NCBI GenBank assembly: GCA_001819395.1
Contig: MHMQ01000011.1
Location: forward strand, 1-42,661
DNA from: Candidatus Niyogibacteria bacterium RIFCSPLOWO2_01_FULL_45_48
Lineage (GTDB): Bacteria > Patescibacteriota > Minisyncoccia > HO2-45-28
Direction: 5' to 3'
Length of the DNA: 42,661 nt
Shown here: positions 8,800 to 15,915 of the stretch, piece by piece
Position numbering within the stretch: the first letter of the stretch is position 1
Layout of the letters: every line of letters begins with the position of its first letter
Program-made: the position numbers and the translations under genes
The notes under the pieces: generated by a model
Told to the model about the DNA's origin: nothing
What the model saw: the letters and a program-made list of their open reading frames with translations, nothing else
Database searches by the model: none

Positions 8800-9246
8800 C
8801 TAAGCGAGTATCACTGTTATTACTCCTATTACTGTAATTATAAGCCCGAATACTTTTTGGACGGTCATGGTCTCTCCTAAAAAGTACCAAAGGATTATTG
8901 CGCTGACCAGAGCGGGGTATGTCGCGGCTATCGCGTTTGTTACCGATTCTTTTCCGGGGCTTAGGTAATAAGCGATTACCACTACGAGGCCCCCCGAAGA
9001 CCAGAACCAGGCGATGGCCCATCCCGACCAATGCCACGACCACGATTTGGCCGGCGCAAACCCGGTAAAAAGCATGACCAGCGCCACGAAAAATATGTTG
9101 CCCATCGTTGCCCAGATAAAAGGCATGGCCGGGTGGAATTTATCCGGACCCATAACTTGGTTCATTTTTACCGAAAGAGGAGCAAGCGTTCCCCAACTGA
9201 AGCAGACGTAAAGCGACAAAAGCAGGGCAAGAGTGTATCTGGACAC
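8800..9246 (-). CDS. EamA/DMT-superfamily small membrane transporter
   Basis: Multi-TM; AIAATYPALVSAIILWYFLGETMTVQKVFGLIITVIGV is EamA-typical. Confidence 0.8.
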   Translation of the reverse strand: MSRYTLALLLSLYVCFSWGTLAPLSVKMNQVMGPDKFHPAMPFIWATMGNIFFVALVMLFTGFAPAKSWSWHWSGWAIAWFWSSGGLVVVIAYYLSPGKESVTNAIAATYPALVSAIILWYFLGETMTVQKVFGLIITVIGVITVILA

Positions 9247-9339
9247 GCCGTTTCTCCGCCGAGGAAAATTTTAAAATTCCTAAGTCATTATATTCCTCGG
9301 ATTTTCATAGTCAACGTTTTAATATATTGTATAAATAAG

Positions 9340-10914
9340 ATGATAAGAGGGGGGATTATTAAAGAAATAAAAAAAATTGCGCCGAAGGACGCCAAATTTT
9401 CGGTTTCGCGCCCGGAACGTCCCGCTTTTGGTGACTACTCGTCCAATGTCGCGATGGTGGTCGCAAAAAAATTTGGTAAAAATTCAAGAGAACTTGCCGA
9501 AGATTTTAAAGAGAAGCTCGGAAAGTCAAAACTTTTTGAAAGAATTGACGTGGCTGGCCCGGGCTTTTTGAATTTTTGGATTTCGCCGGAAGTTGTCGGC
9601 GAAGGTTTTTTGGAATTCGCGCGCGCGAAAGGTCTGCCCAAATTCAACATCGGCAAAAATAAAAAAATACAAGTTGAATATGTGTCGGCTAATCCGACTG
9701 GCCCTCTTACTTTGGCCAATGGTAGAGGGGGATTTTTGGGCGACATTTTATCAAGCGTTTTGGCGCTCGTCGGTTTTAAAGTTGAGCGCGAATACTATAT
9801 AAACGATACCGGAAAGCAAATAATAACACTTGGAAAATCAATGCTTGCGTCGGCCGGACTGATTCCCGACGAAGAAACATTTTACAAGGGGGGTTACATA
9901 AAAGATTGGGCTAAAAAAAATAAAGCAAAAATTAAGAAACTCGGAAAAGATCCTCTGAAACTTGGCCAAGAAGCCGCAAAAGATTTTTTGAAGTCAATTA
10001 AAAACACTCTTAAGAGTATAGCCAAAATAAAATTTGACCGCTGGACGTCGGAAGACAAATATATCCACAAAAAAAACTGGATCAAAAAAGCGCAGGCGCT
10101 TTTTGAGAAAAAAAATATGGTTTACGAAAAAGACGGCGCGACCTGGCTTAAGACAACAGATTTCGCCGATGACAAAGACAGGGTTTTGATTACTTCCGAC
10201 GGCTACCCGACGTATTTTTTGGCTGACGCCGGGCATTATTTTGAATCAGTCGTGCGCGGATTCAAGAAAAAAATAAATATTTTGGGGCCCGACCATTACG
10301 GCTATGTGGCAAGGATTCAAGCTGTTGCCGAAATCGTAGGAATGGAGGACTCGGAAATTATTGTTACCCAAACTGTCCGTCTGATGAAAGGTGGAGAAGA
10401 ATTTAAGATGTCAAAACGCAAAGGGACATTTGTGGCATTTGAAGAATTGATTGATGAAATTGGATTGGATGCCGCGCGTTGGTTTTTTTTGGGGCGCTCC
10501 TCCGATACGCATATTGATATTGATTTGGAATTTGCCAAGAAACAATCGGCCGAAAACCCCGTTTATTATGTCCAGTACGCGCACGCGAGAATGTCGGGAA
10601 TTTTGAGAAAAGCGCAAGTGCACAGCGTTAAGCGTTTAGCGTTTGGTGGTTTTAAAAAAGACGAACTTAAATTTATAAAAAAACTTTTGGAGGTTTCCGA
10701 TGTTTTGGAAGACGTCGCGCGCGATTATCAAGCCCATCGCTTAACGGCTTACGTTTACGAACTCGCGCAGGCATTTTCGGCGTTTTATCGCGATGTGAAA
10801 GTGCTTGACTCCGGCTCGGACGAACCCCGCCGGCTTTTCATAATTAAGTCAGCAAAAAACACTCTAGGCTCGCTTTTGAAACTTCTCGGCATCTCGGCTC
10901 CCGAGAGGATGTAA
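9340..10914 (+). CDS. argS: Arginyl-tRNA synthetase
   Basis: VEYVSANPTGPLTLANGRGGFLGD (HIGH-like region), MSKRKGTFVAFEELIDEIG; start trimmed from ORF 9031 to MIRGGIIKEI. Confidence 0.95.
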   Translation: MIRGGIIKEIKKIAPKDAKFSVSRPERPAFGDYSSNVAMVVAKKFGKNSRELAEDFKEKLGKSKLFERIDVAGPGFLNFWISPEVVGEGFLEFARAKGLPKFNIGKNKKIQVEYVSANPTGPLTLANGRGGFLGDILSSVLALVGFKVEREYYINDTGKQIITLGKSMLASAGLIPDEETFYKGGYIKDWAKKNKAKIKKLGKDPLKLGQEAAKDFLKSIKNTLKSIAKIKFDRWTSEDKYIHKKNWIKKAQALFEKKNMVYEKDGATWLKTTDFADDKDRVLITSDGYPTYFLADAGHYFESVVRGFKKKINILGPDHYGYVARIQAVAEIVGMEDSEIIVTQTVRLMKGGEEFKMSKRKGTFVAFEELIDEIGLDAARWFFLGRSSDTHIDIDLEFAKKQSAENPVYYVQYAHARMSGILRKAQVHSVKRLAFGGFKKDELKFIKKLLEVSDVLEDVARDYQAHRLTAYVYELAQAFSAFYRDVKVLDSGSDEPRRLFIIKSAKNTLGSLLKLLGISAPERM

Positions 10915-11754: not shown

Positions 11755-14700
11755 ATGCAAGACAAAGATAAGAAATCCACAGAGACGGAAATTCTGGAAT
11801 ACTGGCAAAAAAATAAAATTTTTGAGCAAACGCTTGCGAAAACAAAAAAGGGCAAGCCGTTTGTTTTTTACGAAGGTCCGCCTACCGCAAATGGCAAGCC
11901 CGGCATTCATCATGTGGAAGGCCGGTCTTTTAAGGATGTTATATTGCGCTACAAAACAATGCGCGGTTTTCGCGTGCCAAGAGTTGCCGGCTGGGACACG
12001 CACGGGTTGCCGGTTGAAGTTGAGGTTGAAAAAGAGCTCGGTCTGAAAAGCAAAAAAGAAATTGAAGAGTATGGCATTGAGGCGTTCAATAAAAAATGCC
12101 GCGAGTCCGTATGGAAGTATAAAAAGCTGTGGGAAGACATGACTGCCAGAATGGGGTTTTGGATTGATATGGATAAGCCGTACGTCACTTATGAAAACTC
12201 GTATATGGAAAAACTTTGGGGGGTTATTAAAAACTTTTCTGTCAGAAAACTTCTTTATAAAGATTACAAAGTTGTGCCGTGGTGTCCCAGGTGCGGAACG
12301 TCTCTTTCTTCGCACGAACTTGCGCAGGGGTATAAAAAGATAAAAGAAAAATCAATTTATATAAAATTTAAGGCCAAAGACAAAGCTGGCGGAGTCTTTT
12401 ATTTTTTGGTTTGGACCACAACCCCGTGGACTTTGCCGGGAAATGTTGCTTTGGCGGTAAATCCCAAGGCGACATACGTTGTCGCCGAAAAAGACGGCGC
12501 TCGTTTTGTGTTGGTGAAAGAACGAGCCGGGGTTTTGGAAGAAAATTATAAAATTATCAGCGAAAGATCCGGACAAAGCTTTCTCGGGGTTGAATATGAA
12601 CCGCTTTATCGGACTTCCGGCTCCGAGCTTCCGATATTCAATTACAAAGTAATTGGGGCTAATTTCGTTTCAACCGAAGACGGCACGGGCATTGTTCACA
12701 TCGCTCCGGCTTTCGGCGCGGACGACCAGAAAGTCGGCAAAGAAAACGGACTTACAACCCTTATAACGACCGCTGAAAACGGAAAAATGCTAACGCCCGA
12801 TTATTTGTGGAACGGAAAATATTTTCAGGAAGCAAATCAGTTCATCGTTCAAAACCTAAAAGAGCGAAACCTGTTTTTAAAGGAGGAGTCCCACGAACAC
12901 GACTATCCTTTTTGCTGGCGGTGCGATTCGGCTTTGATGTATCTGGCAAAAAATTCCTGGTTTTTAAAAACAACTGCGGTTAAAAAAGAAATGCTCGCCG
13001 AAAACAAGAAAATCGGCTGGCACCCAGAATTCATAAAAGACGGCCGATTTGGCCAGTGGCTGAAAGAAAACGTGGACTGGGCGATATCAAGAGAACGTTA
13101 TTGGGGGGTGCCTTTGCCGGTTTGGATTTGTGAAAAATGCGGACATCAAGAAGTTGTCGGCTCTATAAACGACTTGGATAAACTCGGCCCAAAAAGGACG
13201 ACTAGGGTTTTTGTTGTGCGCCATGGCGAGGCCGAACACAACGTAAAAGGCATAGTTGGGCCGGCGATTCCGGCACGGGATTTTGATAACCACCTTACCA
13301 AAAAAGGAATTAAAGAGGCTGAAAAGACGGCCAGGGCCTTAAAAAAAGAAAAAATAGATTTAATCATTTCCTCTCCGCTTAACCGCACGAGACAAACTTC
13401 GGAGATTCTCGCCAGTACTCTGGGCGTTAAGATGGAAGTCAACGAACAAATTTATGATTATAATATTGGAGATTTTCACGACAGGAGTATTAAAGATTCG
13501 CATATAGAGTTTCCGTTTGAGCGAAGGCTTTGTGAGCCGTTTCCCAACGGCGAGTCGCTTCGCGACGTTAGGGCGAGAATGATGATGGAGTTAAGACGCA
13601 TCGTCAGAAGCAATTCCGGCAAAAATATTTTGATAGTCAGCCACGGCGATCCAATGTGGGTTTTAAATGCCTCACTTGAAGGTTTGGAAGAAAAAAACTA
13701 TCCAAAATCATGGTATCCAAAGACAGGAGAAGCAAAAGAGCTAAAACTCCACAACTGGCCGTACAACAGGGACGGCGAGCTGGATTTGCATAAACCTTAC
13801 GCCGATTTAGTAAATTTGCGGTGTCAAAAATGTGAAGGTAATATGTCGCGTGTAAAAGAAATCGCCGATGTTTGGTTTGACTCCGGAGCAATGCCGTTTG
13901 CTTCCGATGTTCCCGGGTATCCGGCAGATTACATTGTTGAAGCGGTTGACCAAACTCGTGGATGGTTTTACACACTTCTTGCGGTCGCGTCGCTTTTGGG
14001 AAAAAAAGCGCCCTATAAAAACGTAATTTCTTACGGACACGTGTTGGACTCGGAGGGTAAAAAAATGTCCAAACACAAGGGTAATGTAGTTGAACCATCA
14101 CTGCTTTTTGACAAATACGGGGCGGATGCCGTCCGCTGGTATTTTTATACCGTCAATCAGCCGTGGGATGAAAAACTTTTTAAAGAATCGGACATAGCGG
14201 AGGCCTCGCGGAGGTTCCTTAATATTTTCCGGAACTCATTTGTTTACTGGCAGACATATAAAGACAAATCAAAAATCAGCAAGAAAAAACCCAAGCTACT
14301 TATTAATAAATGGCTGAATGCCCGCATGAATCAGGTTGGTTACGAAGCGACCGAAGCTCTTGAAAAATACGACATCGTAAAAGCCGCCAGGGCTATTGAA
14401 AATTTTGTGGCCGAAGATTTATCCAGATGGTACATAAGGCGAATTAGGGATGCGATCAGATTCGGCTCAAAAAAAGAAAAAGAAGAGATATCATCTATTT
14501 TTGGTCTCGCTTTATATGAAGTCGCAAAACTTTCGGCGCCCTTCGTTCCGTTTTTAACAGACAAAATGTTTTTGGATGTAATGGGCAAGGGTAGTATCCA
14601 TCTGGAGAAGTGGACTAAATTTAAAAAACCGTCTAAGGCCGACAAAAAATTGGCTGAAGAGATGAACGAGGCGCGAAGAATTGTTTCGTTAGCACTTGAG

Positions 14701-15123
14701 GCAAGGGCTAAAGCGGGAATTAAAGTACGTCAGCCACTCGCCCTACTTAAGGTAAAATCTAAAAAATTAAATATAAAAAATAAAGAACTTGTCGGGCTGA
14801 TTAAGGGCGAAGTCAATATAAAAGAAATAAAATTTGATCCGAAAATAAAAGATGAAGTTGAATTAGATGTCAACATAACGCCCGAACTTAAAGAAGAAGG
14901 CCAGCTTCGCGAACTTATTCGCCACATTCAGGAGAAAAGAAAAGAAGCAGGCCTCCAGCCGTCAGATAAAACAACTTTTGTCGCTTTAACCGACGACAAA
15001 GGCGAAACCTTTGTAAAGAAGTTTGAGTCGGTCCTCAAAAAAGAAGCGGGGATTAAGGTTATTTCTTTTGGCGAACCCTCAAAACCCAACCGCTTGACTA
15101 TTTCTTTGAAGTTTGGTATATAG
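11755..15123 (+). CDS. ileS: Isoleucyl-tRNA synthetase with inserted histidine-phosphatase domain
   Basis: FYEGPPTANGKPGIHHVEGR, TTPWTLPGNVALAV, DVWFDSGAMPFAS, KMSKHKGNVVEP; insert RVFVVRHGEAEHN...SSPLNRTRQTSE...ILIVSHGDPMW; start trimmed to MQDKDKKSTETEILEYW. Confidence 0.96.
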   Translation: MQDKDKKSTETEILEYWQKNKIFEQTLAKTKKGKPFVFYEGPPTANGKPGIHHVEGRSFKDVILRYKTMRGFRVPRVAGWDTHGLPVEVEVEKELGLKSKKEIEEYGIEAFNKKCRESVWKYKKLWEDMTARMGFWIDMDKPYVTYENSYMEKLWGVIKNFSVRKLLYKDYKVVPWCPRCGTSLSSHELAQGYKKIKEKSIYIKFKAKDKAGGVFYFLVWTTTPWTLPGNVALAVNPKATYVVAEKDGARFVLVKERAGVLEENYKIISERSGQSFLGVEYEPLYRTSGSELPIFNYKVIGANFVSTEDGTGIVHIAPAFGADDQKVGKENGLTTLITTAENGKMLTPDYLWNGKYFQEANQFIVQNLKERNLFLKEESHEHDYPFCWRCDSALMYLAKNSWFLKTTAVKKEMLAENKKIGWHPEFIKDGRFGQWLKENVDWAISRERYWGVPLPVWICEKCGHQEVVGSINDLDKLGPKRTTRVFVVRHGEAEHNVKGIVGPAIPARDFDNHLTKKGIKEAEKTARALKKEKIDLIISSPLNRTRQTSEILASTLGVKMEVNEQIYDYNIGDFHDRSIKDSHIEFPFERRLCEPFPNGESLRDVRARMMMELRRIVRSNSGKNILIVSHGDPMWVLNASLEGLEEKNYPKSWYPKTGEAKELKLHNWPYNRDGELDLHKPYADLVNLRCQKCEGNMSRVKEIADVWFDSGAMPFASDVPGYPADYIVEAVDQTRGWFYTLLAVASLLGKKAPYKNVISYGHVLDSEGKKMSKHKGNVVEPSLLFDKYGADAVRWYFYTVNQPWDEKLFKESDIAEASRRFLNIFRNSFVYWQTYKDKSKISKKKPKLLINKWLNARMNQVGYEATEALEKYDIVKAARAIENFVAEDLSRWYIRRIRDAIRFGSKKEKEEISSIFGLALYEVAKLSAPFVPFLTDKMFLDVMGKGSIHLEKWTKFKKPSKADKKLAEEMNEARRIVSLALEARAKAGIKVRQPLALLKVKSKKLNIKNKELVGLIKGEVNIKEIKFDPKIKDEVELDVNITPELKEEGQLRELIRHIQEKRKEAGLQPSDKTTFVALTDDKGETFVKKFESVLKKEAGIKVISFGEPSKPNRLTISLKFGI

Positions 15124-15366: not shown

Positions 15367-15915
15367 ATGTACAACCTCCACCACACCGAAGGAATAATTT
15401 TGTCGGCAAATGATTTTGGAGAAGCCGACAGGATTTATAATATTTACACCAAAGATTTCGGGAAAGTGTCGGTTCTTGCCAAAGGGGTGCGGCTTGAAAA
15501 ATCAAAATTGCGGCCGCACCTTCTTCCGCTGTCCTTTGCGAGAGTTTCTTTCATTGAAGGCAAAGAATTTATGCGCCTGACCGACGCCGAAGAAATTTTA
15601 TCCCCGCTGCTTGACGAAAAAACTTATTCGGTGTTTTCCGGCGCATGTTCTTTTTTAGAAAGACTGGTTAAGGGTCAAGAAAAAGACGAAGCCGTCTGGG
15701 AACTTTTGCGGAGCCTTTTGTTGAACACCGAGTGTTTAATACATGAGGGGTTTGAAGAAATTTTTCAAGCTCGGCTTTTGTACCGGCTTGGCTATGTTGA
15801 TTCGGAAGATGAAATAATTCGCGGAAACCGTTGGTCTGATTTACCAGATCAAGTACTCAGGGTGGCCGAGTTCAAAAAGATTAGCGCTCAAGGCCTTTCA
15901 GCCAGCCAGCTTTAA
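15367..15915 (+). CDS. recO: DNA repair protein RecO (short form)
   Basis: HHTEGIILSANDFGEADRIYNIYTKDFGKVSVLAKGVRLEKSKLRPHLLPLS. Confidence 0.88.
   Translation: MYNLHHTEGIILSANDFGEADRIYNIYTKDFGKVSVLAKGVRLEKSKLRPHLLPLSFARVSFIEGKEFMRLTDAEEILSPLLDEKTYSVFSGACSFLERLVKGQEKDEAVWELLRSLLLNTECLIHEGFEEIFQARLLYRLGYVDSEDEIIRGNRWSDLPDQVLRVAEFKKISAQGLSASQL

Follow-up and report, generated by a model that had tools for sequence, protein, structure and literature searches.

The window, a contig of 42,661 nucleotides, encodes a type-2 isoleucyl-tRNA synthetase (IleRS) that carries a branch-1 histidine phosphatase (HP) in its CP2 loop. The gene, ileS, is read from a single unbroken frame at 11755–15123 on the plus strand (1122 aa) in the order IleRS N-terminal part, HP, IleRS C-terminal part, and its neighbours are argS upstream (9031–10914, +; PF03485, PF00750, PF05746) and recO downstream (15367–15915, +; PF11967). 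The ileS model TIGR00392 matches the protein in two stretches (816 bits against a cut-off of 621), with the PF00300 match between them at residues 485–651 counted from the Met at 11755 (DNA about 13207–13707). With 120–125 bits (124.6) against a gathering cut-off of 21.7, and E-values of 1.3e-34 within the whole protein and 5.3e-36 for the insert alone, this match identifies a branch-1 HP. The first-pass annotation had proposed a histidine phosphatase domain at 13195–13770 (+) within an uninterrupted frame, and both points were confirmed, the limits of the insert being precise to within about 10 residues.

The insert is located in the zinc-knuckle loop of CP2, 3' of the segment IGS..EL and 5' of DLHRPY. 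The knuckle is thereby divided into a first half with Cys459/Cys462 (13129–13140, +), assigned from the sequence, and a second half with Cys690/Cys693 (13822–13833, +), which is invariant in the alignment, while a C-terminal linker, PYNRDGELDLH (13759–13791, +), identified by motif comparison, leads from the HP to the CP2 strand. In Thermus IleRS the four knuckle cysteines bind zinc. The CxxC pattern of Cys459/Cys462 is present in insert-bearing and in most insert-less IleRS, and the latter have only a short loop at this site, as had been stated earlier.

The remaining part of the protein shows the signatures of an IleRS, including PGIHH, KMSKH, WTTTPWTLPGN and GTGIVHIAPAFGADD, which correspond to the HXGH/GXHH and KMSKS motifs and to the editing motifs of CP1. 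The final residue of the KMSKH loop differs from KMSKS, and the HXGH motif has the GIHH form. GIHH/GXHH is a swapped HXGH motif reported for some IleRS2, and the IleRS2 of Priestia megaterium has a motif of this type (PMC10485003). A connection of the GXHH motif with the insert was rejected, since each form of the motif was found with and without it. With the models for mupirocin-resistance IleRS of the MupA and MupB type the protein scores 734 and 774, below the NCBIfam exception cut-off of 1900.

An AlphaFold2 model of the whole protein reached a pLDDT of 90.7 and a pTM of 0.83, and its HP region consists of alternating strands and helices with pLDDT values mostly between 87 and 97; the HP modelled alone from a single sequence gave a poor model (pLDDT 44). 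The best PDB match of the full-length model is P. megaterium IleRS2 (8c8v), and comparison with Thermus IleRS (1ile) gave a TM-score of 0.91, normalised to the target length. Due to this resemblance the synthetase fold is predicted to be unchanged around the insert. The window protein has the fold, the CP1 editing domain and the CP2 zinc knuckle in common with both solved enzymes (8c8v/8c8w and 1ile), but the best solved IleRS chains align to it in two stretches that skip the insert, and no solved IleRS chain with an HP was found among the PDB matches.

Conservation and distribution of the insert

The earlier reading had also noted that the R-H pair, the second Arg and the second His of HP enzymes are all present, and these residues can be assigned to R489-H490, R544 and H630. 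They show no variation across the 81–84 distinct single inserts that were aligned: R489 and H490 of the catalytic RHG (R489-H490-G491; 13219–13227, +), with H490 as the predicted phosphohistidine, are conserved in 81/81 inserts, and both R544 (13384–13386, +), the predicted second phosphate-binding Arg, and H630 (13642–13644, +), the second catalytic His, in 84/84. The predicted general acid, D568 (13456–13458, +), is Asp in the window and Glu in most relatives (74 Glu and 9 Asp, hence an acid in 83 of the 84), while E600 (13552–13554, +) and R608 are each kept in 83/84. The catalytic residues are equally invariant when 15 free-standing relatives or the two copies of tandem HPs are examined. 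In eight of the nine computable comparisons the dN/dS of the HP was 0.02–0.14, similar to that of the remaining IleRS (0.04–0.13), and in the ninth, a copy pair from one genome bin, it was 0.22; several dS values are close to saturation, so that these ratios are rough. Conservation and dN/dS support a catalytic set that is maintained under purifying selection. However, a conserved RHG is no proof of the expected activity: no activity is known for the RHG domain of mycobacterial MutT1, where mutation of the His leaves the measured phosphatase activity in place (PMC11784022).

The insert is frequent in the class of the window genome and patchy elsewhere within the ultra-small Patescibacteria (CPR). 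It was found in about 26 of 37 relatives, nearly all of different families, and in about 154 of 240 genomes of a class sample (best E below 1e-85), where contig ends truncate some of the remaining ones. A phylum sample contained 25 genomes of the class, of which 20 carry the insert, and 263 of other classes, of which at least 26 do. Since the same insert is present in a sister genome assembled as one contig (G001) and in many families, a chimeric assembly join, which the first-pass annotation had considered, can be rejected. Among the matches listed, insert-bearing records come from Yanofskybacteria, Nomurabacteria, Paceibacterota, Kerfeldbacteria and Peregrinibacteria, and the insert was seen within Patescibacteria alone. 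One insert-bearing IleRS lies on an 8.5-kb contig titled Spirochaetia (L046); because both trees place it inside Patescibacteria and the contig is this short, it is probably misbinned. Insert-less IleRS occur in the same families as insert-bearing ones, and several genomes of the class have an IleRS without insert and no PF00300 domain at all, indicating that the HP is dispensable.

Separate genes and entry into the zinc loop

In nine genomes (G021, G288, G327, G365, G400, G416, G392, G458 and G490) an HP gene lies immediately upstream of an insert-less ileS. Listed by locus, the distances from the HP stop to the ileS start are -7, 4, -4, -4, 1, -4, 14, -4 and 3 nt, four of the pairs overlapping by ATGA. 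The gene preceding the HP looks like argS by eye in 7/9 of them, so that in most split genomes checked the HP stands between argS and ileS, in the order known from the window. The nine HPs score 172–222 bits with a profile of the insert, compared to 26–130 bits for ordinary HPs of related genomes, they are placed among the inserts in the HP tree, and a tree in which all free-standing HPs of the IleRS type form one clade was not rejected (p 0.43). Covalent placement is thus not needed in all lineages. The first-pass annotation had proposed a "built-in" phosphatase, which is one form of this association; the other is the same type of HP as a separate gene. Two further arrangements were observed: in G468 (L244) the order is argS-HP-recO with ileS on another contig, and G100 (L182) combines an HP insert in IleRS with a free-standing HP gene located roughly 300 nt upstream.

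A diverged type of IleRS, with SKKRYWGLALPI and with NPWLDAG replacing DVWFDSG, is found in the families f182, f187 and f194 (L228, L229, L230 and L262), and a separate HP is encoded just upstream in three of these four loci. Since another genome of f182 (G408) has the usual IleRS with an in-frame HP, at a contig edge, the HP appears to have been retained through an exchange of the synthetase.

On an IleRS tree calculated with the insert removed, presence of the insert requires about 17–20 changes (FastTree, a rough estimate). The motif of the linker PYNRDGELDLH is present in 43 of 89 insert-bearing IleRS, in 5 of 46 insert-less IleRS from CPR and in 0 of 60 from outside CPR, which suggests that the five insert-less lines with this trace have lost the insert. 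In family f105 the loop contains two HPs in 7 of nine or more genomes inspected; the IleRS with tandem HPs (L186, L187, L188, L192 and L271) have about 1465–1550 aa, the catalytic motifs of both HPs are complete wherever copies were checked, and the second copies fall among ordinary HPs in one tree. Among 153 genomes scanned for PF00300, three (G412, G420 and G075) have a valyl-tRNA synthetase (ValRS) whose homologous zinc loop contains an HP. These are encoded at L236:63-3101 (-), at L267:1726-4473 (-), where the same genome also has the IleRS insert, and at L268:2026-5004 (-) of G075, where the second catalytic His is lost; the ValRS of G506, a sister of G412, has no HP. In agreement with these tandem and ValRS forms, HPs seem to have entered the CP2 loop more than once, and one clade for all synthetase-associated HPs was weakly rejected (AU p 0.033). 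Outside synthetases, an HP was also observed in an ORF of 552 aa (L269:1988-3643, -), which by eye looks like a 2-hydroxyacid dehydrogenase fusion.

Candidate substrates of the phosphatase

HP enzymes are mostly small-molecule phosphomonoesterases, and the recurrence of HPs in IleRS and ValRS together with the coupled separate genes points to a diffusible substrate common to Ile and Val charging more than to one that depends on a fixed covalent site. On these grounds our preferred putative substrate is a small phosphorylated molecule that either arises as a by-product of amino-acid activation or inhibits this step. The insert would be an active branch-1 HP and a partner of IleRS, an independent side domain that does not interfere with aminoacylation or CP1 editing and is produced in about equal amount with the synthetase. 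H490 would take over the phosphate as phosphohistidine in a pocket formed by R489, R544 and H630, with D568 as the acid, so that a small phosphorylated molecule made by, or inhibiting, the activation of Ile (sometimes Val) would be removed at source. Conservation and gene arrangement give good support to an active phosphatase coupled in function to Ile/Val charging, and the chances appear about even that it works with IleRS in clearing such a by-product or inhibitor. We tentatively extend this to a so far undescribed phosphatase step in Patescibacteria, tied to the charging of Ile and sometimes Val, in which a by-product or inhibitor may be cleared or proofread by an HP recruited through repeated entry into the CP2 loop or through a coupled operon; this wider proposal is possible, though it should be taken with reserve. 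The first-pass interpretation is supported in part, namely for the identity of the HP, its conserved catalytic set and its link to IleRS; the editing role and the substrates it named (Ile-AMP, a tRNA end, a damage product) would be further candidates.

Alternatively, the HP could be a metabolic phosphatase for a sugar phosphate, phosphoserine or a similar compound, unlinked to aminoacylation, with ileS as a steadily expressed carrier. HP families act mostly on small metabolites, the nearest relatives in the PDB are a phosphoserine phosphatase and CobC-like enzymes, and in several small genomes the insert HP is the sole PF00300 domain. We nevertheless consider this role rather unlikely, since a neutral carrier would hardly account for the recurrent linkage with ileS in several arrangements or for HPs having apparently entered the loops of IleRS and ValRS more than once. 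Replacement of phosphoglycerate mutase in particular is unlikely because the metal-dependent family of this enzyme is present in 33/37 relatives including the window genome, G000. That the HP acts on a tRNA end or on damaged tRNA, for example by dephosphorylating its 3' or 2' position prior to charging, appears improbable: we know of no phosphate-bearing tRNA specific to Ile or Val, and free-standing HPs require no fixed geometry. Such a role would agree with the position of the HP within the synthetase body, with the related docking of tRNA in IleRS and ValRS, and with RNase H/HP as the best NCBIfam relative, though below its cut-off; moreover, HP domains are known in RNA-linked proteins, as in the tau55 subunit of TFIIIC (PMC4490372).

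HipA_C was absent from all 37 relatives while four control genomes were positive, so that a function in countering HipA kinases was rejected, and a regulatory role of the HP as a protein phosphatase for IleRS itself or for other translation proteins is quite improbable, even though HPs acting as protein phosphatases (SixA, Sts-1) and kinases that phosphorylate class I synthetases (HipA/HipT) exist. Finally, the insert could be catalytically idle and retained as a structural or tRNA-binding add-on. While insert-less IleRS of the same families imply that aminoacylation needs no HP, invariant catalytic residues and the retention of the HP as a separate coupled gene leave very little room for an idle domain. 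Replacement of pyrophosphatase gained no support either: a soluble type I pyrophosphatase (PF00719) is present in 8 and a membrane H+-pyrophosphatase in 21 of 37 genomes, the latter including G000, with no evident match between pyrophosphatase type and presence of the insert. The recurrent link between IleRS and HP offers a direct route to test for a phosphorylated compound in aminoacylation.

Relation to known enzymes

The RHG, the second Arg, the acid, the second His and the overall length of the insert are common to PF00300 phosphatases of the PspA/CobC/PhoE type (E 1e-10 against PDB 4ij5), from which it differs by its location inside a tRNA synthetase. All substrate-named HP subfamilies compared (PspA, CobC, GpmB, dPGM and SixA) remained below their NCBIfam equivalog cut-offs, and the top NCBIfam match of the insert, RNase H/HP, reached 82 against a cut-off of 326. 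In mycobacterial RNase H/HP (PRK07238) and MutT1 (Nudix plus RHG) an HP is likewise fused to an enzyme of nucleic acids or nucleotides, but as a terminal fusion, whereas the window HP is inserted into the zinc loop. NF040702 describes an IleRS that also has an extra enzymatic domain, but a different one (N-acetyltransferase/GNAT), and the window protein scores 313 against its cut-off of 1999.

The architecture of HP in IleRS is probably already visible in domain databases. A literature search, with preprints and most subscription papers outside its coverage, found no publication on an IleRS with a histidine phosphatase, and to our knowledge no phosphatase within a tRNA synthetase has been known. 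The separate parts are known; as far as searched, there is no description of their combination, of how widely it occurs, of the split form with coupled genes or of the repeated arrival of HPs in one loop. Within one of the largest bacterial phyla, the HP in IleRS is common, under selection and repeatedly linked with the same synthetase in varied arrangements, and may serve as a marker of streamlined translation in these mostly uncultured bacteria. tRNA synthetases have acquired many appended domains; one IleRS of 1544 aa (L183:641-5272, +) has, besides an HP in CP2, two further domains in its CP1 region, one serine-hydrolase-like (PF06821) and one of the Nudix type (PF00293).
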